From Pseudomonadota bacterium (GTDB taxonomy: Bacteria > Pseudomonadota > Alphaproteobacteria > Caulobacterales > Caulobacteraceae), in NCBI GenBank assembly GCA_023416055.1, contig JAEZIH010000173.1:1-11146 (forward strand): DNA of 11,146 bases, in the 5' to 3' direction. Shown here in pieces: positions 1,128-10,249 of the stretch (positions are counted from its first letter, which is position 1; the number at the start of each line of letters is the position of its first letter). Both the position numbers and the translations under genes were made by a program. The notes beneath the pieces are model-generated. The model had not been told where the DNA came from and made no database searches. It saw only the letters and a program-made list of their open reading frames with translations.

Positions 1128-1646
1128 ATGCCGCGCATGCGCACCGGGATCGGCTTCTATCTGCTGGTGTTCGTCGCCGGCTTCGTCACCTTCACCCTGC
1201 ACGAGGGCGGGCACTGGGCCGTCGCCGAGCTGCTGGGTCACGACGGCTTCTTCAGCCTGAACCGGGCCGGCGCGCGCGAGGCGCCCGGCGCGGACCACAT
1301 GGCGCTGATCACCGCCGCCGGCCCGGCGGTCACCATCCTGCAGGGCCTGATCGCCTTCGCCCTGGTGCAGGCCCGGCGCAGCGCCCTGGCCTGGATCTTC
1401 CTTTTCTGGGCGGCCTTCATGCGGCTGATGGCGACCGTGATCAGCCTGTGGAATCCCAACGACGAGGCGCGCCTCAGCGAGCATTTCGGCCTCGGCGGCT
1501 GGACTTTGCCGATCGTCGTGACCGTGGCGCTGCTGGCGCTGTTCGCCGTCGGCAGCCGGCGCGTGCGGGTCCGCTGGACGACGCTGGGCCTGACCTGGCT
1601 GGTCGCGTCGGCCGCCATTTCAGCAATCGTGTTCAGCGGGCTTTAG
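1128..1646 (+). CDS. Small integral membrane protein with HExxH motif, M50 site-2-protease-like
   Basis: 172 residues with four or more hydrophobic segments (about 8-24, 60-80, 87-107, 125-142, 152-170). HEGGH (25-29) lies in the first helix, followed by AAGPAVT (63-69), reminiscent of the AGPxxN element of M50 proteins, and NPND (109-112), resembling the NPxDG motif that supplies the third zinc ligand. If active it would be an intramembrane zinc protease, but it is far shorter than RseP or SpoIVFB and lacks a PDZ domain, so catalysis is an inference. The frame is open upstream to 1023, but those residues (arginine-rich, no membrane segment) look non-coding; the ATG at 1128 places a hydrophobic helix near the N-terminus and sits after a promoter-like sequence. 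The ribosome-binding site is weak (CGGGGGC). Its last 14 bases overlap the end of the converging selU gene. The specific family is not certain. Confidence 0.75.
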   Translation: MPRMRTGIGFYLLVFVAGFVTFTLHEGGHWAVAELLGHDGFFSLNRAGAREAPGADHMALITAAGPAVTILQGLIAFALVQARRSALAWIFLFWAAFMRLMATVISLWNPNDEARLSEHFGLGGWTLPIVVTVALLALFAVGSRRVRVRWTTLGLTWLVASAAISAIVFSGL

Positions 1647-2682
1647 CGCCCTCGATGGCGGCGGCCGCGGCATCGGCCGCCCGCTCCATCGCCGCCTCGT
1701 CCAGCCCGTCCACCGTCACCGTGGCGAAGCAGGCGCGCCCCTGGCCCTGCCGTCGATAGGCCGGGTCGTAGTGGCCCACGATCAGCTCCGTCGCCAGCGC
1801 CAGCCGCTCTCCCGCCGCCGCCAGGGCCCGCCACCGCGACACCGTCTCCTTCGAGATATGCCGCGGCAGTCGTGTCAGCGCCTCGTCGATGGCGGCTGCG
1901 TCGAGCCCCGCGTAATCGCGCACGGACCGGGCGGCGCGCACCTCGACCGGCGACTCCAGCCGCACGGCCGGTGCGGCGGTCATCGCCGCCCACAGCGACG
2001 GCGGAATCTGCCGCGCGCCGATCCTCGAACTCTCCGCCTCGACCGCCACGGGCCGCTCCGGGTCCAGCCGCGACAGGGCGTCGTACACCCGCGACTCCAA
2101 CATCTTCTGCGACGGCTGCCCGCCGGGCCGGGCCCCGAACAGCGAGCCGCGATGGCCAGCCAGCGCCTCCAGGTCCAGGGTCTGCACCCCCCGCCCGGCC
2201 AGCGCCGCCAGCAGGACCGTCTTGCCCGCCCCCGTCGGCCCGTCGATCAGCACCAGGCGGTGCGCCAGCGGCCGGTCGTGCAGGGCCGCCGTGACCTGCC
2301 GCCGCCACGTCTGGTAGCCGCCCTCCAGCACCGTCACCGGCCAGCCGACCTGGTCCATCACCGTGACCATGGCCCCCGACCGCTGCCCCCCGCGCCAGCA
2401 ATAGACCAGCGGCCGGAACGAACCGTCCCGGCCGCCCAGCGCCCCCTCCAGATGGCCGGCGATGTTGCGCGCGACCATGGCCGCGCCGGTGCGGCGGGCG
2501 AGGAATTTCGACCCCTGCACGTATTCGGTCCCGACCGCCGCCCGTTGCGCGTCGTCCAGCACCGGCAGGTTGATCGCCCCCGGCACATGATCGACCGCGA
2601 ACTCCGAGGGGCTGCGCACGTCGATGATGGCGTCGAAGCCGTCGCGGGCGGCGGGCGACAGGTCCGTGCTGCGGCGGATCAT
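1633..2682 (-). CDS. selU: tRNA 2-selenouridine synthase SelU/MnmH
   Basis: 349 residues, matching the usual length of SelU (MnmH, formerly YbbB). The enzyme first geranylates 2-thiouridine at the wobble position (U34) of tRNAs for Lys, Glu and Gln, then exchanges the geranyl-sulfur for selenium from selenophosphate. Two domains are visible. The N-terminal rhodanese domain runs to about 130, opening with [20 protein letters not shown] (21-40) and carrying its active-site loop [10 protein letters not shown] (94-103) with catalytic Cys95. The C-terminal P-loop domain has GPTGAGKT (148-155), and a later [10 protein letters not shown] segment (218-227) is typical of the family. The ATG at 2682 overlaps the selD stop as ATGA, implying translational coupling; an upstream in-frame extension would be low-complexity Gly/Arg and is rejected. 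The gene follows selD, which makes its substrate. Its 3' end overlaps the converging gene ending at 1646. Identification is secure. Confidence 0.96.
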
Positions 2683-3725
2683 CCGACGACGCGCACCCGC
2701 GGCGGCCCCTCGACCACCCGGCCGACGACGTGGAAGCCGGCGCCGTTCACCCGCGCCAGGGCGGCGACGGCCTCGACCTCCGCCTCCGCCACGGCGATCA
2801 GCAGGCCGCCCGAGGTCTGCGGGTCGGTCAGCAGGTCGCGCCGCCACGGCTCCAGTCCCTCGGGCAGGTCGATCTCATGGCCGTAGCTGGCCCAGTTGCG
2901 CGTCGAGGCCCCGGTGCGCACCCCGTCCTCCAGCAGCTCCTGCACGCCCATGAGCGTCGGCGGCCGCGACCCGATCTCCACCGTCGCTCCCGCACCGCGG
3001 GCCATCTCCAGCGCGTGGCCCAGCAGGCCGAAGCCGGTCACGTCGGTGACCGCATGCACCTCCGGCCTTCCCGCCAGCTTCGCCCCGAGACTGTTCAGCC
3101 GCGTCGTCGAATCCTTCAGGGTCCGGTATCCGTCCTTGCTCAGCCGCTCCTGTTTGAAGGCCGCGCTCAGCACCCCGACGCCCAGCGGCTTGGTCAGGGC
3201 CAGCACGTCGCCCGGCCTTGCGCCGCGGTTGGTCAGCACGTGATCGGGATGGACCAGGCCAAGGGCCACCAGACCGTAGATCGGCTCGACGCTGTCGATG
3301 GAATGGCCGCCCGCGACCGGCACGCCCGCCGCGGCGCAGGCCGTGGCCCCGCCCTGCAGGATGCGGCCGATGGTCCGCGGCGACAGCACGTTCACCGGCA
3401 TGCCGACAATGGCCAGGGCCATGATCGGCGTCCCGCCCATGGCGTAGACGTCGGACAGGGCGTTGGTCGCGGCGATCTGGCCGAAGTGGAACGGGTCGTC
3501 GACCACCGGCATGAAGAAGTCGGTGGTGGCGATCAGGGCCTGCTGGTCGTTCAGCCGCCAGACCGCCGCGTCGTCCGAGGTCTCGGTCCCGACCAGCAGC
3601 TCGGCGAAGGACGCCGCCGGCGGCATCCGGGTCAGGATGTCCTGCAGCACGGCGGGCGCGATCTTGCAGCCGCAGCCGCCGCCGTGGGCGAGGGAGGTCA
3701 GGCGAGGTTCGTCGGCGTCGCTCAT
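2679..3725 (-). CDS. selD: Selenide, water dikinase SelD (selenophosphate synthetase)
   Basis: 348 residues from ATG at 3725, almost the same length as E. coli SelD (347). It makes selenophosphate from selenide and ATP, the selenium donor for tRNA selenouridine (SelU) and, where present, for selenocysteine. The glycine-rich catalytic start HGGGCGCKI has Cys18 and Lys21 in the positions of E. coli Cys17 and Lys20, so this is a cysteine, not selenocysteine, version. Further landmarks are [52 protein letters not shown] and DPQTSGG near the C-terminus. The start is uncertain: the frame is open to another ATG at 3794 (23 more residues) and a TTG at 3800; 3725 was chosen by family length, and no candidate has a clear Shine-Dalgarno. 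The gene overlaps selU by 4 bases (ATGA) and diverges from the GST-like gene. No selA or selB lies in this window. Confidence 0.96.
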
Positions 3726-3802
3726 GGCCAAGGTCTGGGCGAAACCGGGCGTGAACTCAATGGGCCGAACGGCCCCGGCGTGCGCCGCGCTCATTCCCAA
3801 AC

Positions 3803-5409: not shown

Positions 5410-5832
5410 GTGACCGCGCCGTCCGAAACGCGCCCGCCTCTGGTGTCGCACGTTTCGGTCGGCGTCACCGACCTGCACCGCGCCGGCGTCTTCTACGACG
5501 CCGTTCTGGCCGTCGTCGGCGCGCGCCGCCTCATCGAGCGCGGCGCCGGGATCGGCTACGGCCGCGCCTTCCCGGAATTCTGGCTCAACCTGCCGCGCGA
5601 CGCCCGCTTCACCACCGTGGCCGGGCTGGGCGCCCACGTCTGCTTCAATGCCTCCGATCCTCCCGCCGTGGCCGCCTTCCATGAGGCGGGACTGGCGGCG
5701 GGCGGCTTCGACGACGGACCGCCCGGCCCTCGCCCCGAATACGCCCCGGGCTACTACGCCGCCTTCCTGCGCGACCCGGACGGCAACAAGGTCGAGGCCA
5801 TGTGCTGGATCGCCCGCCCCGACCCGGCGTGA
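5410..5832 (+). CDS. VOC (glyoxalase/dioxygenase superfamily) protein
   Basis: 140 residues starting at GTG 5410, 4 bp after the greA stop. One VOC unit of two beta-alpha-beta-beta-beta modules is seen: VSHVSVGVTDLHRAGVFYDA (12-31) opens the first, GAHVCFNASD (74-83) the second, and FLRDPDGNKVEAMCW (119-133) closes it. Possible metal ligands in the family pattern are His14, Glu56 (in PEFWLN), His76 and Glu129, so metal binding is plausible. The superfamily covers lactoylglutathione lyases, extradiol dioxygenases, epimerases and antibiotic-binding proteins; the sequence does not decide between these. Its stop overlaps the next start as GTGA (5829-5832), indicating coupled translation with the ELM1-like gene. 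Confidence 0.9.
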   Translation: MTAPSETRPPLVSHVSVGVTDLHRAGVFYDAVLAVVGARRLIERGAGIGYGRAFPEFWLNLPRDARFTTVAGLGAHVCFNASDPPAVAAFHEAGLAAGGFDDGPPGPRPEYAPGYYAAFLRDPDGNKVEAMCWIARPDPA

Positions 5833-6821
5833 CCGCGCCCCTGAACATCTGGGTCGTCTCCGACGGCCGCGCCGGCATCGAGAACCAGGCCCTCGGCCTG
5901 GCCGAGGCCGTGGCCCGGCTGACCCCCGCCGACATCTCCGTCAGGCGCATCCGCTGGCGCCGCGCCTTCGACCGCCTGCCCTCGGCGCTGAAGGCGCCAT
6001 GGATGCTGGACCCGTCTTCCGATCCCGTCGCGCCCGCGCCGGGCGAGGCCTGGCCCGATCTTTGGATCGCCGCCGGCCGGGCCACCCTGCCCCTGTCGGT
6101 GCGGGTGAAGGCCCGCTCGGGCGGCCGCACCTTCGTGGTCCAGGTCCAGGATCCACGCTGGCGCACCGACGCCTACGACCTGATCGTCGCCCCCGCCCAC
6201 GACCGGCTGAAGGGGCCCAACGTCCTGTCCATCACCGGCTCGCCCCACCGGGTCACGCCCGCCCGCCTGGCCGAGGGCGCCGCCGCCTTCGCCGACCGGC
6301 TGGAGGCCCTGCCCCGCCCTCGCCTCGCCGCCCTGATCGGCGGCCGCTCCATGGCCTTCGACCTGACCGAGGCCCACGCCGCCGGGCTGGCGGACCAGAT
6401 CGCGGACGCCGTGACCGCGGCGGGCGGCTCGCTGATGCTGACCTTCTCGCGGCGCACCCCCGAGGCGGCGAAGCAGGCCGTGACCGCCCGCCTGGCGGAC
6501 CTGCCGGGCATGATCTGGGATGGGACCGGCGCCAATCCCTACTTCGCCTTCCTGCATTTCGCCGACCACGTGCTGGTCACCGAGGACAGCGCCAACATGG
6601 CCGCCGAGGCCGCCTCGGCCGGCCAGCCGGTGCACATCCTGCCCATGGTCCCGCTCAAGCCCGCCGGCAAGTTCGCCCGGCTGCACGCCGACCTCCGCGC
6701 CCGCGGCGCGGCGCGGCCGTTCGACGGATCGCTCAAGGCGTGGCGCTACGATCCGCTGAACGAGACGGAGCGTGCGGCGCGGGCCGTGCTCGAGGCCCGC
6801 GCGGCGCGCAAGGCGCCCTAG
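5829..6821 (+). CDS. ELM1/GtrOC1-like (DUF1022) family protein
   Basis: 330 residues from GTG 5829; an in-frame ATG at 5802 would add 9 residues inside the preceding gene, but the 4-base GTGA overlap and the N-terminus at a beta-strand (LNIWVVSDGRAG, 5-16) favour 5829. Family landmarks are DGRAGIENQALGLAEA (12-27), FVVQVQDPRW (102-111), DLIVAPAHD (117-125), ALIGGRSMAF (168-177) and DHVLVTEDSANMAAEAASAG (246-265). The last resembles the nucleotide-sugar region of GT-B glycosyltransferases. The name comes from plant ELM1, which recruits a dynamin for mitochondrial fission; the bacterial members are widespread in alphaproteobacteria and their role is not established to my knowledge, though a link to envelope glycan synthesis has been considered because of the fold. 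No signal peptide or membrane helix is seen. Its stop codon shares a CTAG with the converging PPC gene. Confidence 0.88.
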   Translation: MTAPLNIWVVSDGRAGIENQALGLAEAVARLTPADISVRRIRWRRAFDRLPSALKAPWMLDPSSDPVAPAPGEAWPDLWIAAGRATLPLSVRVKARSGGRTFVVQVQDPRWRTDAYDLIVAPAHDRLKGPNVLSITGSPHRVTPARLAEGAAAFADRLEALPRPRLAALIGGRSMAFDLTEAHAAGLADQIADAVTAAGGSLMLTFSRRTPEAAKQAVTARLADLPGMIWDGTGANPYFAFLHFADHVLVTEDSANMAAEAASAGQPVHILPMVPLKPAGKFARLHADLRARGAARPFDGSLKAWRYDPLNETERAARAVLEARAARKAP

Positions 6822-7990
6822 CCTTCCAGCTGGTACGGCTGGAATTCGCAGCCGACGCTGCGGACCAGGGCATAGATCACCTCGGGATCCGTGGCGCCCG
6901 CCTCGGCGGCGAAGGCGACGCCGTCATACTCCGAGTAGAACTCCACCTCGTTGAAGCCGAGCACCCTCGGCAGGCCGTACTTGACGAACTCCCGGCCCTC
7001 GACGCGGACGGAGCCGCTGTCGCGGTACCAGCTCCGGCCCACCGCCTCGGTGGCGTTGAGATCGGCCGGCGGCGTCTCACGGCCCGCCGCTATCAGAACG
7101 CTCTCGGTCCCGTCCGTCTTGCCGGACATCGATCGCAGGGCGTGGGATCCCCGGAAGTAGACGCAGGCCTCCCTCTCGCGCAGTCCAGCGAACCGGGACG
7201 GGGCCGCGGTTGCGGGCGGGCCGCTCCCGCCGCCGCCGCCCGCAAGGCTGAGCCGGTAAGCCCCCGTCTCCCATGACCCGAGGCTGTTGGCGCGAATGCT
7301 GTAGACCCCATCCCGGGGCAGGGTGACGTCCACCCGGGAGTCAGTGCCGCCGGCGCCATCGTCGTCGGTGCGCAGCGGATCTCCCGCGCAATAGGCCCCG
7401 GGGTAGAGCCCCAGATAGGTGTCGAACTCGCTGGAGCGCATTTCGACGGACACCTGTTGACCCGCCCGGCCGGAGAAGGCGAAGCAGTCATAGAGGCTGT
7501 CGTCGCTGGCCGTCAGGTCGCCCGCGGACAACTCGCCGCGCACCGACTGGCCGAAGGAGATGGCGGCCCCTTCCCGCGCCACGGGGCCGGCGCCCAGTTC
7601 CACGACCGTGAGGGTGTACGGCCCGGTTTCATCCGCCAAAAGGCTGTTGGCGCGAACCGACCAGACGCGGCCGTCGCCGGTAAAGTCTATCCGTGAGTCC
7701 GTTCCGCCGGCGCTGTCGTCGTCCGATTGGCTGTCGCTCCAGACGCAGTTGCTCCCGGCGCCGAGGGCCATATAGGCGTCGAACACCTCGGAGTGCATCT
7801 CCACCCGGTACCGCCGTCCCGCCTCGGTTCGGAGCACGTGGCAGTCGTAGAAGCTGCCGTCATCCAGCCGGGCGTCCGACCTCGACAGGTCTCCCCGCAG
7901 AACACCCTCGGGCGTCAGAGCCGACTGCGCCTGCGCCGACCCGGCCAGGAGCGCCGCCGCGGCGAACACGCCAAGCTGCACTTTTTTCAT
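6818..7990 (-). CDS. Exported protein with two PPC-like domains and an uncharacterised C-terminal domain
   Basis: 390 residues from ATG 7990, preceded by a good Shine-Dalgarno (GAGGGGTGAG); an open extension to 8035 lacks both. A Sec signal peptide is clear: MKK, a hydrophobic core, then GSAQA with cleavage after residue 21. Two repeats with a 119-120 residue period follow (about 22-131 and 142-250), each ending in a SxRANSL...ETGxYxL strand pattern typical of bacterial pre-peptidase C-terminal (PPC) beta-sandwich domains. Each has an Asp-rich loop, SDDDSAGGTDSRID and TDDDGAGGTDSRVD, and one Cys pair 32 residues apart (50/82 and 169/201), probably disulfides. A Gly/Pro linker (250-262) leads to a C-terminal domain (about 268-390, Cys276 and Cys381) containing FVKYGLPRVLGFNE. 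I do not recognise it, but it recurs in the gene at 8364. No protease domain is present. Likely periplasmic or surface; function unknown. TTGACGT (minus strand, 8046-8040) may be a -35, with no clear -10. Confidence 0.88.
   Translation of the reverse strand: MKKVQLGVFAAAALLAGSAQAQSALTPEGVLRGDLSRSDARLDDGSFYDCHVLRTEAGRRYRVEMHSEVFDAYMALGAGSNCVWSDSQSDDDSAGGTDSRIDFTGDGRVWSVRANSLLADETGPYTLTVVELGAGPVAREGAAISFGQSVRGELSAGDLTASDDSLYDCFAFSGRAGQQVSVEMRSSEFDTYLGLYPGAYCAGDPLRTDDDGAGGTDSRVDVTLPRDGVYSIRANSLGSWETGAYRLSLAGGGGGSGPPATAAPSRFAGLREREACVYFRGSHALRSMSGKTDGTESVLIAAGRETPPADLNATEAVGRSWYRDSGSVRVEGREFVKYGLPRVLGFNEVEFYSEYDGVAFAAEAGATDPEVIYALVRSVGCEFQPYQLEG
6824..6844 (+). terminator. Possible hairpin just after the ELM1-like gene
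   Basis: TTCCAGC (6824-6830) and GCTGGAA (6838-6844) form a 7-bp stem with a 7-nt loop, 3 bases past the stop at 6821. No T-run follows. The hairpin lies inside the last codons of the converging gene, so codon constraint may explain it; the paralogue's equivalent end (9176-9200) does not form the same stem, which hints at a separate role. Weak call. Confidence 0.27.
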
Positions 7991-8074
7991 CGTCTCACCC
8001 CTCGACCCAGGCCGTCGAAGGGACGGGAAAGACAACGTTACGTCAAGCCGCCGCTGCGAGGCGCGATGGAAGGG

Positions 8075-8314
8075 TCAGTCCTCCCCGCCCCCGGAGGGGC
8101 CCTGGTCGCCGTCGCGATCGTCGGAGGACGCCGGGCCGTCACCGGGCTTCTTCCCGCGCCGTTTGCTCTCGTCCATGGCCAGGCCGAGGGCGACGCCGAT
8201 GGCGACGCCCGCGCCCATGCCGACCGCGATGTTGTCCATGGCCACGCCGATGCCGGCCCCGATGGCGAGGCCCAGCGCAATGCCGAAGCCCAGGTGGCTG
8301 CTGCGGCTTTCCAT
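8075..8314 (-). CDS. Glycine-zipper mini-protein, function unknown
   Basis: 79 residues from ATG 8314, with GGGAG as ribosome-binding site about 9 nt upstream. Residues 9-48 are two glycine-patterned hydrophobic stretches, FGIALGLAIGAGIGVAMDN and VGMGAGVAIGVALGLAMDE, each ending in AMD plus a polar residue; this looks like an internal duplication. Small residues at every second to fourth position are the hallmark of glycine-zipper helices that pack tightly in membranes. The tail (49-79) is polar, starting SKRRGKK and ending in an acidic, glycine-rich stretch, so probably outside the membrane. It has no signal peptidase site. It lies 84 bp upstream of the two-PPC gene on the same strand and could be co-transcribed with it; it diverges from the paralogue at 8364. 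Glycine-zipper proteins occur in envelope anchoring, bacteriocins and toxins; the sequence does not choose. Confidence 0.78.
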   Translation of the reverse strand: MESRSSHLGFGIALGLAIGAGIGVAMDNIAVGMGAGVAIGVALGLAMDESKRRGKKPGDGPASSDDRDGDQGPSGGGED

Positions 8315-8327
8315 TTCTGACTCCCGG

Positions 8328-8357
8328 TTGCCGGACTTTCTCCCGCCAGACTACCAT
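8328..8357 (+). promoter_or_regulatory. Candidate promoter giving a leaderless transcript of the one-PPC gene
   Basis: TTGCCG (8328-8333), an 18-nt spacer and TACCAT (8352-8357) lie in the 49-bp divergent gap 8315-8363. The -10-like element ends 6 nt before the ATG at 8364, so transcription would start at or next to the start codon. No Shine-Dalgarno is visible, which agrees with leaderless initiation. By-eye call. Confidence 0.35.
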
Positions 8358-8363
8358 CCGCCC

Positions 8364-9200
8364 ATGATGATCGCAGCCCTCGCTTTCGCCGCCGCACTCG
8401 GCGCGCAGCAGCAGCCCGCCGGCGCGGCCCCTCTCCTCACCCTCGGACAGTCGGTGCGCGGCGAACTGGCCCCTACGGATCCGACCGGAGACGCCGGCGC
8501 CCATTTCGACTGCTACAGCTTCAGGGGCTCGGCGAGGCAGGCCCTGACGGTTCGGCTCCAGTCCTCGGCCTTCTCCCCCGTACTGTACCTGCGTCGGGGA
8601 CCCACCTGCGACGGCAACTTCCTGTACGTGGCCCGGCCCACCGGCGACGAAGCCCTGGTGAACACCGACCTGAACTACGACGAGCTCTATTCCCTGACCG
8701 TGCGGAGCGTGAACGCCGGCGAGACCGGGGCCTACACCCTCACCCTCGGGAACCCTCCGCCCGCCATCCGGCGACCGCCGGCCGGGCAACAGCCCGCCCG
8801 TCAGCCGGAGCGCATCCGCGAAGGCTGCGGCTATACGCCGGGGACCAACCGCCTGTCTCCCATCGAGATCGGCGTGTTCGACGAGGACAACCTGCCATTC
8901 GTGGATCACCTTGGCCGGGCTGTCCGGGTGAACGGCCAGTGGATCCATCCGGCCGGGAGCCCCTATGCCGATGGCCGGTCCCGATCCTGGTTTATCAACA
9001 ACGAGCCGATCACCGTCCGCGGACGCGACTATGTGAAGTACGGTCTGCCGCGCGTTCTCGGGCTGAACGAGGCGGGGTGGTTCGCCGAACTCGACGGCCT
9101 GGCCGTGGTCGCCGAGAGCGGCTTGGCCGATCCGGAGGTGGTCTATGTGTTGATCGATCCGGCCGACTGCGCCTTCCAGCCCTATCAACCGAAGGCGTGA
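8364..9200 (+). CDS. Exported protein with one PPC-like domain and the same uncharacterised C-terminal domain
   Basis: 278 residues from ATG 8364 (a second ATG follows at 8367). The N-terminus is a short hydrophobic stretch, MMIAALAFAAALGA, then QQQPAG; it looks like a minimal signal peptide with no basic residues, so export is probable but less clear than for the paralogue. Residues 24-129 form one PPC-like unit beginning TLGQSVRGEL and ending GETGAYTLTLG, with Cys50 and Cys82 at the same 32-residue spacing as in the paralogue. The Asp-rich GGTDSR loop is lost. A Pro/Gln/Arg linker (131-150) leads to the C-terminal domain (152-278; Cys155, Cys269) with YVKYGLPRVLGLNE and CAFQPYQ. The last 60 residues align without gaps to the paralogue with 33 identities by hand count. 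The frame is open upstream to 8163, but that stretch is antisense to the glycine-zipper gene. Function unknown. Confidence 0.87.
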   Translation: MMIAALAFAAALGAQQQPAGAAPLLTLGQSVRGELAPTDPTGDAGAHFDCYSFRGSARQALTVRLQSSAFSPVLYLRRGPTCDGNFLYVARPTGDEALVNTDLNYDELYSLTVRSVNAGETGAYTLTLGNPPPAIRRPPAGQQPARQPERIREGCGYTPGTNRLSPIEIGVFDEDNLPFVDHLGRAVRVNGQWIHPAGSPYADGRSRSWFINNEPITVRGRDYVKYGLPRVLGLNEAGWFAELDGLAVVAESGLADPEVVYVLIDPADCAFQPYQPKA

Positions 9201-9222
9201 CACCTCCCCTTTGTCGGAATCA

Positions 9223-9238
9223 GCGCCTAGATAGGCGC
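9223..9238 (+). promoter_or_regulatory. Palindrome with embedded -10-like element directly before trxB
   Basis: GCGCCTA (9223-9229), two bases, then TAGGCGC (9232-9238) form a perfect 7-bp inverted repeat ending exactly at the trxB ATG (9239). Inside it TAGATA (9228-9233) resembles a -10 element and ends 5 nt before the ATG, which would give a leaderless message. TTGTCG (9211-9216) could be the -35, but the spacer is only 11 nt. The palindrome could be an operator or simply a hairpin; no Shine-Dalgarno is seen. Confidence 0.4.
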
Positions 9239-10249
9239 ATGAGCACTCCCCGCACCGTCCGCGTCGCCATCATCGGGTCCGGCCCCGCCGGCTGGACCGC
9301 CGCCATCTACGCCGCCCGGGCGCTGCTGAACCCGGTGGTCATCGCCGGCCTCCAGCCCGGCGGCCAGCTGACCATCACCACCGACGTGGAGAACTATCCC
9401 GGCTTCGCCGACGTCATCCAGGGTCCCTGGCTGATGGAGCAGATGCAGAAGCAGGCCGAGCACGTCGGGACCGAGGTGATCCACGACATCGTGGTCAAGG
9501 CCGACCTGTCGCAGCGCCCGTTCCGCCTGACGCTGGACTCGGGAACCGAGCTGCTCGCCGAGACGGTGATCATCTCCACCGGCGCCCAGGCCAAGTGGCT
9601 GGGGCTGGAGAGCGAGGCCAAGTACCAGGGCTTCGGCGTCTCCGCCTGCGCCACCTGCGACGGCTTCTTCTACCGCGGCAAGGAAGTCATCGTGGTCGGC
9701 GGCGGCAACACCGCCGTCGAGGAGGCGCTGTTCCTCACCAACTTCGCCTCAAAGGTCACCGTCGTGCACCGCCGCGACGAGTTCCGCGCCGAGCGCATCC
9801 TGCAGGACCGCCTGTTCGCCAATCCCAAGGTCGAGGTGATCTGGGACTCGGCCATCGACGAGATCCTCGGCGAGACCAGCGACCTCGGCGCCGTCAACGT
9901 CACCGGCGCCCGCCTGAAGAACGTCAAGACCGGCGAGACCCGCGACGTCGCCGCCGACGGCGTCTTCATCGCCATCGGCCACGCGCCCTCGTCCGAACTG
10001 TTCAAGGGGCAGCTGGAGATGAACGCCGGCGGCTATCTGAAGGTGAAGCCCGGCACGGCGGCGACGGAGATCGAGGGCGTCTGGGCCGCCGGCGACGTCA
10101 CGGACGACGTCTACCGCCAGGCCGTCACCGCCGCCGGCATGGGCTGCATGGCGGCGCTGGAGGCGGTGCGCTTCCTCGCCGAGCAGGACCACAAGGCCGA
10201 AGGCCATCCGATCGCGCACAAGGAAGCGGAGAAGATCGGAGCCTGGTGA
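9239..10249 (+). CDS. trxB: Thioredoxin-disulfide reductase TrxB
   Basis: 336 residues, slightly longer than the roughly 320 of E. coli TrxB. The flavoenzyme passes electrons from NADPH through FAD to its redox cysteines and then to thioredoxin in the cytoplasm. Visible in order: FAD-binding GSGPAG (13-18), QPGGQLTITTDVENYPGF (39-56), the redox-active CATC (Cys137, Cys140) followed by DGFFYRGK, NADPH-binding GGGNTA (154-159) with HRRDEFRA downstream (177-184; HRR binds the 2'-phosphate, so NADPH use is expected), and the second FAD motif AAGDVTD (283-289) with YRQAVTAAGMGCMAA. The C-terminus ends in a short polar extension HKAEGHPIAHKEAEKIGAW. ATG 9239 is chosen from the conserved start of the Rossmann strand; upstream is a palindrome with a -10-like sequence instead of a ribosome-binding site. 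Only the last base of its stop lies in the heptamer inverted repeat. Confidence 0.97.
   Translation: MSTPRTVRVAIIGSGPAGWTAAIYAARALLNPVVIAGLQPGGQLTITTDVENYPGFADVIQGPWLMEQMQKQAEHVGTEVIHDIVVKADLSQRPFRLTLDSGTELLAETVIISTGAQAKWLGLESEAKYQGFGVSACATCDGFFYRGKEVIVVGGGNTAVEEALFLTNFASKVTVVHRRDEFRAERILQDRLFANPKVEVIWDSAIDEILGETSDLGAVNVTGARLKNVKTGETRDVAADGVFIAIGHAPSSELFKGQLEMNAGGYLKVKPGTAATEIEGVWAAGDVTDDVYRQAVTAAGMGCMAALEAVRFLAEQDHKAEGHPIAHKEAEKIGAW

Follow-up and report, generated by a model that had tools for sequence, protein, structure and literature searches.

Gene arrangement and PPC domains

The analysed DNA (the window) is 11,146 nt in length and carries two divergent genes, P1 and P2, which flank a small glycine-zipper ORF (GZ). 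The features are as follows.

5802..6821, plus strand: ELM1-family protein, PF06258 E 1.5e-101; one flank, context only
6818..7990, minus strand: P1, 390 aa; signal peptide (by eye), two PPC domains and the shared C-terminal domain; ATG at 7990
6821..7189, minus strand: P1 copy of the shared domain, residues 268–390; Cys276 and Cys381; 34/60 identities with P2, alignment A3
7244..7561, minus strand: P1 PPC domain 2, residues ~144–249; Cys169/Cys201; best PF04151 stretch 167–235
7604..7900, minus strand: P1 PPC domain 1, residues ~31–129; Cys50/Cys82; BLASTP to the P2 PPC domain, E 7e-10
8075..8314, minus strand: GZ, glycine-zipper mini-protein, a 79-aa ORF between P1 and P2
8364..9200, plus strand: P2, 278 aa; one PPC domain and the shared C-terminal domain; ATG at 8364
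8436..8747, plus strand: P2 PPC domain, residues ~25–128; Cys50/Cys82; sub-threshold in Pfam, BLASTP to P1
8802..9197, plus strand: P2 copy of the shared domain, residues 147–278; Cys155 and Cys269; model pLDDT 95.8
8988..9188, plus strand: conserved core of the P2 domain, W...KYGLPRVLG...E...C-F-Q-P-Y-Q; invariant and near-invariant columns of 83 sequences
9239..10249, plus strand: TrxB-like pyridine-nucleotide oxidoreductase, PF07992 E 5.2e-51; conserved flank, context only

The reading frames given in an earlier note on this DNA are correct, i.e., the ATG at 7990 (minus strand) yields P1 and the ATG at 8364 (plus strand) yields P2. Both genes are nested in longer mechanical ORFs with TTG starts (6818–8035, minus, and 8163–9200, plus). 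P2 is 38 bp upstream of the oxidoreductase gene, which we take to be trxB, and on the same strand. GZ has the same orientation as P1, and P2 diverges from it. P1 homologues reach 98% identity in a protein search. There are six cysteines in P1 and four in P2, two for every domain, PPC or shared.

PPC (PF04151) covers only the N-terminal half of the proteins, as two copies over the cut-off in P1 and one diverged copy in P2. The score for P1 is 36.6 bits over two stretches, which exceeds the Pfam gathering cut-off of 25.9 bits, and the pair of PPC domains described in the earlier note is thus upheld. The single domain described in P2 scores 14.1 bits (E 0.09) and falls below this cut-off, yet it is homologous to PPC domain 1 of P1 by BLASTP (E 7e-10). 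P2 also aligns with the second PPC domain plus shared domain of P1 over 253 columns with 35% identity (E 1e-43). Because the low score is accompanied by BLASTP homology, the P2 domain is regarded as a diverged PPC domain and not as a scored member.

A Pfam scan of P1 and P2 up to E 10 shows no peptidase family, in agreement with the earlier statement that a protease is missing. Attachment to a protease is usual for PPC but not required; its absence is not unusual, since PPC-only proteins are present among the database matches, e.g., P0158, P0207 and P0216. The description of both proteins as secreted holds for P1, whose N-terminus is an ordinary signal peptide as judged by eye. The N-terminus of P2 is hydrophobic but has no charged n-region (also by eye), so P2 is a putative exported protein.

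The shared C-terminal domain

The shared core of P1 and P2 aligns without gaps over 60 residues with 34 identities, one more than an earlier hand count of 33. In 10,000 shuffles of this comparison the mean number of identities is 4.65 and the maximum is 14. The existence of a shared domain is therefore sound, but its length is nearer to 125 residues than to the ~115 originally proposed.

The domain was also reported as unrecognised, and this remains so. No Pfam or NCBIfam family is over the cut-off for the window domain, and the 83 members of alignment A3 give scattered weak matches only in these libraries. Neither a sequence search of the PDB nor a Foldseek search with the predicted structure provides a name or a clear match. 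The window domain finds nothing in PHROGs, and a viral fold library gives no match at E 0.001 or below. The portions of the open-licence literature covered, PMC4828448 included, contain no description of it. The possibility that it is a diverged PPC domain was considered and rejected: PPC has no match on the window domain, and none of the fold matches listed is described as PPC. Six of the 83 A3 members match PPC weakly; some members of A3 themselves have PPC domains.

Structure prediction for two subfamilies yields an almost all-beta fold with pLDDT values of 95.8 and 92.0 and the same strand order, with 51 rows common to the alignments behind the two models. The invariant residues are W, GLPR, C and FQPY. 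The cysteine pair is conserved (74/75 and 83/83), and both cysteines are also invariant when diverged short members are included (14 rows). Seven diverged Gemmatimonadota members have lost GLPR and have a displaced second cysteine. Judging from its conservation, the near-invariant pair probably closes the domain as a predicted disulfide.

The conserved residues bear on whether the domain could be a small exported enzyme. R84 and Q126 (domain numbering) are invariant and K79, Y80 and E105 are conserved. All are polar, and these K, Y, R, E and Q residues could instead make up a small catalytic site, which counts against a non-catalytic reading. However, there is no invariant Ser, His or Asp in the alignment and, besides the second cysteine, no invariant nucleophile or metal-ligand set. 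In addition, diverged members have lost R, K and E or carry substitutions there, and the domain is fused to non-enzymatic modules. An enzyme is quite improbable.

Distribution and the glycine-zipper gene

The shared domain occurs also in two bacterial phyla besides that of the window. An HMM built from A3 matches 213 of 319 listed proteins, 81 of which are in A3 itself. In Gemmatimonadota, the phylum of G005, the domain is found in 74/298 genomes, with up to 8 copies and at E below 1e-30 in 12 (at most nine candidates scored per genome). Brevundimonas, the genus of G001, has it in 13/131 genomes, with at most 21 and at most twenty-nine candidates scored per genome in the surveys. In the family of G007 there are 3 of 147, and G010, a known carrier, is absent among those matches. 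A class-wide sample has it in 1/337 genomes, this one being G001 itself; since at most 8 candidates were scored per genome, absence elsewhere in the class is weak evidence.

The domain is found alone, after PPC, before PPC, with a PKD-like domain (PKD_6 in P0309), or at the end of a long N-terminus and a proline-rich linker. These classes follow a rough rule that leaves 39/213 as 'other', misfiles P0055 (a barrel piece) as standalone and probably assigns P0069 wrongly to PPC. One interpretation is that the domain has no ligand and serves only to stabilise or cap exported proteins at their C-terminus, or as a secretion or assembly signal. It is terminal in most architectures and its invariant residues are mostly structural, and in some secreted proteases PPC domains can be processed off or truncated, according to PMC3327674 and PMC4906391. 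However, the domain is often the whole protein (73/213 standalone by the rough rule, fragments included) and can come first, before PPC, as in P0049. We consider this interpretation unlikely.

An IQ-TREE analysis included 62 loci, the window and 21 of the 319 proteins, with matches above E 1e-4 or shorter than 75 residues dropped. The 86 sequences were reduced to 78 without identical ones and to 76 tips after removal of Brevundimonas L036 (>35% gaps) and of L141_264 (a partial copy, by hand). P1-type domains form a clade (99%, 8 tips) apart from a P2/standalone-type clade (90%, 9 tips). A recent local duplication is not supported, because the P1-type and P2-type domains lie in these separate clades. 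Both clades are in one 26-tip clade (94% UFBoot) that holds Brevundimonas loci, the window, database proteins with no taxon assigned, and L035, which has a long branch. There is no indication of a mobile origin: no contig is identified as phage, as none of nine pattern matches was confirmed, and plasmid records are absent. Outside Brevundimonas, six loci, two of them from one assembly, were inspected by eye for ORFs of 120 aa or more; the close relatives L009 and L010 share their neighbours, and otherwise none recurs.

The earlier note proposed that P1, GZ and P2 are one small envelope system, with two copies retained around GZ. GZ is present in all 13 domain-bearing Brevundimonas genomes, 12 of which have the domain gene beside GZ/trxB. 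However, GZ is also kept in 90 of the 118 domain-less Brevundimonas genomes, at no more than 200 bp from trxB in 85. Both paralogues are seen together in none of the 13 domain-bearing genomes, where no second copy is seen (some assemblies are incomplete). The 62 Gemmatimonadota and 8 Chitinophagaceae loci, mostly of ~2–4 kb, have no clear GZ match, the one match being 43 residues at E 0.055. With the best match per genome taken (103 of 106 matches), the distance between GZ and trxB is at most 2.5 kb in 103/103 Brevundimonas genomes with GZ, 90 of which are domain-less. Of the three second matches left out, the one in G124 likewise adjoins a trxB match; the other two, in G043 and G134, lie far from trxB. 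The position near trxB therefore explains why GZ is found beside the domain gene, and a check of gene neighbours reveals no pairing beyond it. Homologues scattered without the paralogue or the mini-protein, named in the earlier note as evidence against its proposal, are present; they tell against the system and not against the domain. GZ appears to be a neighbour by position only and is probably not part of a system with P1 and P2. The one-system proposal is already largely refuted and very improbable. This case illustrates how counts across genomes can undo a 'system' to which a small, conserved neighbouring gene seemed to point.

A candidate envelope module

Four proteins with a PPC pair 48–57% identical to that of P1 (P0150, P0157, P0170 and P0178; 4/4 scanned) have the OmpA C-terminal domain (PF00691) in place of the shared domain. 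PF00691 has no match up to E 10 in P1 or P2, and the almost all-beta fold predicted for the shared domain is unlike that of OmpA_C, which is mixed alpha/beta. In Gemmatimonadota the domain is carried after a proline-rich linker by opacity-like/OMP_b-brl barrels (PF13505, PF13568), a barrel-linker-domain layout that resembles OmpA. The barrels are carriers only, as their matches do not cover the shared domain. PF13505 exceeds its cut-off in a single protein, the diverged member L054, and P0054 is annotated in one source as an 'opacity protein-like surface antigen'. The main-type barrel assignment is weak (PF13568 E 0.036 in P0057), and P0066 and P0115 show no Pfam barrel family up to E 0.1. An OmpA end was also sought on domain-less Gemmatimonadota barrel siblings: L163, the sole one readable to its end, has a C-terminus that is unnamed by Pfam and is not OmpA, and L160 is cut by the contig end.

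The best structural alignment, repeated but weak, places the second half of the domain with the SpaI/NisI lantibiotic-immunity lipoproteins (Spa1_C, PF18218), which are likewise small exported beta proteins. Spa1_C is not among the Pfam matches of the 83 members up to E 10, and a PF18218 search of G001 gives no match but is uninformative, with 14 control genomes likewise silent. It is doubtful that the domain is a distant relative with this fold and that, like those lipoproteins, it protects the cell by binding antimicrobial peptides or comparable amphipathic molecules at the envelope. Equally doubtful is a wider version, an undescribed family common to Gemmatimonadota, Bacteroidota and Caulobacterales that uses a SpaI/NisI-related fold as a general envelope module, on PPC, on barrels or alone; its ligands, bound at the cell surface or in the periplasm, would be antimicrobial peptides or a precursor of the cell wall.

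The best explanation, to which we give about an even chance, is that the shared domain represents an unnamed family, an exported non-catalytic beta domain that serves envelope proteins as a module for recognition or anchoring. Its role in these proteins is most likely that of a candidate binding or anchoring piece. P1, with its signal peptide seen by eye, and presumably P2 would be exported to an oxidising compartment and fold there, and the conserved cysteine pair may close the domain. Carried by PPC domains, or by an outer-membrane barrel with a proline-rich linker, the domain would bind a partner located in the periplasm, in the cell wall or on the cell surface, and the putative binding surface may lie around the conserved KYGLPR and CxFQPYQ motifs. 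In Brevundimonas the genes would occupy a variable stretch beside trxB that is marked by GZ in most genomes.

What is new is a confidently folded domain that has no Pfam or NCBIfam model or clear PDB match and is present in apparently exported proteins of three phyla. Its presence behind a close PPC pair, in the place taken elsewhere by the anchor of OmpA, points to another way of envelope tethering or sensing.

P1, P2 and their shared C-terminal domain

P1 (390 aa) and P2 (278 aa) are neighbouring PPC proteins, and in both the PPC-type sequence is followed by a linker and then by the same C-terminal domain.

7990-6818, minus strand: P1, within a longer mechanical ORF
8364-9200, plus strand: P2, within a longer mechanical ORF

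The two copies of the domain have 34 identities over the last 60 core residues, compared with a shuffle maximum of 14, which bears out the common C-terminal domain proposed in the earlier note. The PPC content described there stands for P1, where Pfam shows two stretches (36.6 bits); the single PPC of P2 is sub-threshold (14.1 bits), yet it is homologous to both of those in P1. P1 has six cysteines and P2 has four, with two per domain. This fits export to an oxidising compartment; P2 is probably exported, and the domain probably contains a disulfide.

The shared domain is a real unnamed family, and its member proteins are apparently exported. Pfam has no family for the window domain and gives weak scattered matches only across the 83 members of the domain alignment (A3); NCBIfam gave the same outcome. 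Three protein searches gave 154, 244 and 254 hits, and the 120 top-ranked hits of each search make up 319 distinct sequences. An HMM made from A3 detects the domain in 213 of these, 81 of which are themselves rows of A3, and a strict motif pair detects it in 208. The W, G-L-P-R, C and F-Q-P-Y positions are conserved in 83/83 sequences of A3, the first cysteine in 74/75, K79 and Y80 in 78/83 and E105 in 76/83. The fold is predicted with confidence. Diverged short Brevundimonas members retain the W, one F and both cysteines (14-row alignment, A4). P0009, P0010 and L033:1501-2382 form a P2-like subgroup with a histidine-rich insert ahead of the domain's last strands, possibly a metal site.

Distribution and history of the domain

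The domain is found in 11 of 131 Brevundimonas genomes with A3 and 13 of 131 with A4. It is in 74 of 298 Gemmatimonadota genomes, 12 of them at E < 1e-30; the other matches are diverged forms, down to E about 1e-5. Chitinophagaceae, the family of G007 (Flavisolibacter), have it in 3/147 genomes, all three known beforehand, and the class of Brevundimonas genome G001 in 1/337, namely G001 itself (with no more than 8 candidates scored in each genome). A named-genome scan gave 12 loci, all within Brevundimonas, Gemmatimonadota and Chitinophagaceae, and searches of phage and plasmid sequences revealed no matches. Gemmatimonadota have the most copies among the groups searched, with up to eight in a single genome, and transfer out of this phylum is possible.

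In a domain tree of 76 tips the Brevundimonas side is one group (94%, 26 tips), within which P1-type and P2/standalone-type sequences are separate branches. The window's two copies therefore look like old paralogues, and the separate branches disfavour a recent duplication as the source of the P1 and P2 domains. Gemmatimonadota loci L049, L050, L051, L052, L054, L055 and L056 form a diverged clade (100%, 7 tips) that has lost GLPR and has the second cysteine in an LDC-like motif and not at the C-terminal one, which would fit a rewired disulfide.

The glycine-zipper gene and the Brevundimonas locus

Most Brevundimonas loci compared display the order ELM1-family gene, GZ (the 79-aa glycine-zipper gene, minus strand), trxB, response regulator and kinase; an ELM1-family match is absent from the 17 kb of G002. 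A domain gene adjoins GZ/trxB in 12 of 13 domain-bearing genomes. In seven of the 12 (G001, G002, G003, G004, G054, G075, G136) it occupies the GZ-trxB interval, and in the other five (G012, G050, G081, G116, G118) it is beyond GZ, on its far side. In G027 the domain copy and trxB are on different contigs. In the window, one domain copy flanks GZ on either side.

The best GZ match is ≤2.5 kb from trxB in 103/103 genomes that have GZ, 90 of them without the domain; in 85 of these 90 it is within 200 bp (median 88 bp). GZ is thus part of the trxB surroundings, with domain genes varying alongside; its place is positional, and the small envelope system of P1, GZ and P2 suggested earlier is not supported. 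By raw counts, with relatedness ignored, GZ is present in 13/13 domain-bearing genomes versus 90/118 others. The 70 loci from Gemmatimonadota and Chitinophagaceae, most of them short, gave no GZ apart from one 43-residue match (E 0.055).

ORFs that we take to be DUF559-type nucleases lie between the ELM1-family gene and GZ in three Brevundimonas loci (L001:825-1583, L004:976-1383 and L105:642-1064, minus), which marks this stretch as a variable spot. Short, strongly diverged family members are located beyond GZ at the same locus in four genomes that have no P1 or P2 match (L121:733-1167, L063:6490-6903, L064:8511-8954 and L136). P2 and its relatives occupy the GZ-trxB interval (window 8364-9239), the expected site of the trxB promoter; the P2-trxB gap is 38 bp, and there may be read-through from P2 into trxB. 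Two overlapping genes at 1633-3800 (minus), likely one operon, presumably encode SelD and an MnmH/SelU-like protein for selenouridine; relatives of one or both are in 7/13 loci in the comparison, two of which belong to one genome.

Architectures and C-terminal ends

A rough rule assigned the 213 domain proteins to standalone (73, fragments included), long N-terminus with Pro-rich linker and domain (42), other (39), PPC+domain (22), domain with C-terminal extension (15), partial barrel/linker (13), without start (8) and domain+PPC (1). In P0309 the domain is followed by a PKD-like domain. L054, a diverged member, carries an outer-membrane barrel (PF13505, E 2.9e-9); among the main barrel-type proteins P0057 has a weak barrel score, and P0066 and P0115 have none.

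Four proteins (P0150, P0157, P0170 and P0178) have a PPC pair close to that of P1, with 57, 54, 50 and 48% identity over 57–64% of P1, and end in OmpA's domain. The OmpA-ended proteins suggest that two envelope-binding termini, the shared domain and OmpA's domain, have been exchanged with each other. L163:1192-2376 (minus, Gemmatimonadota), the only barrel sibling lacking the shared domain whose C-terminus is readable, has a Pro-rich linker and then a different stretch, unnamed by Pfam, and so lends no help to the idea of an exchange. The shared domain probably works in binding or anchoring.
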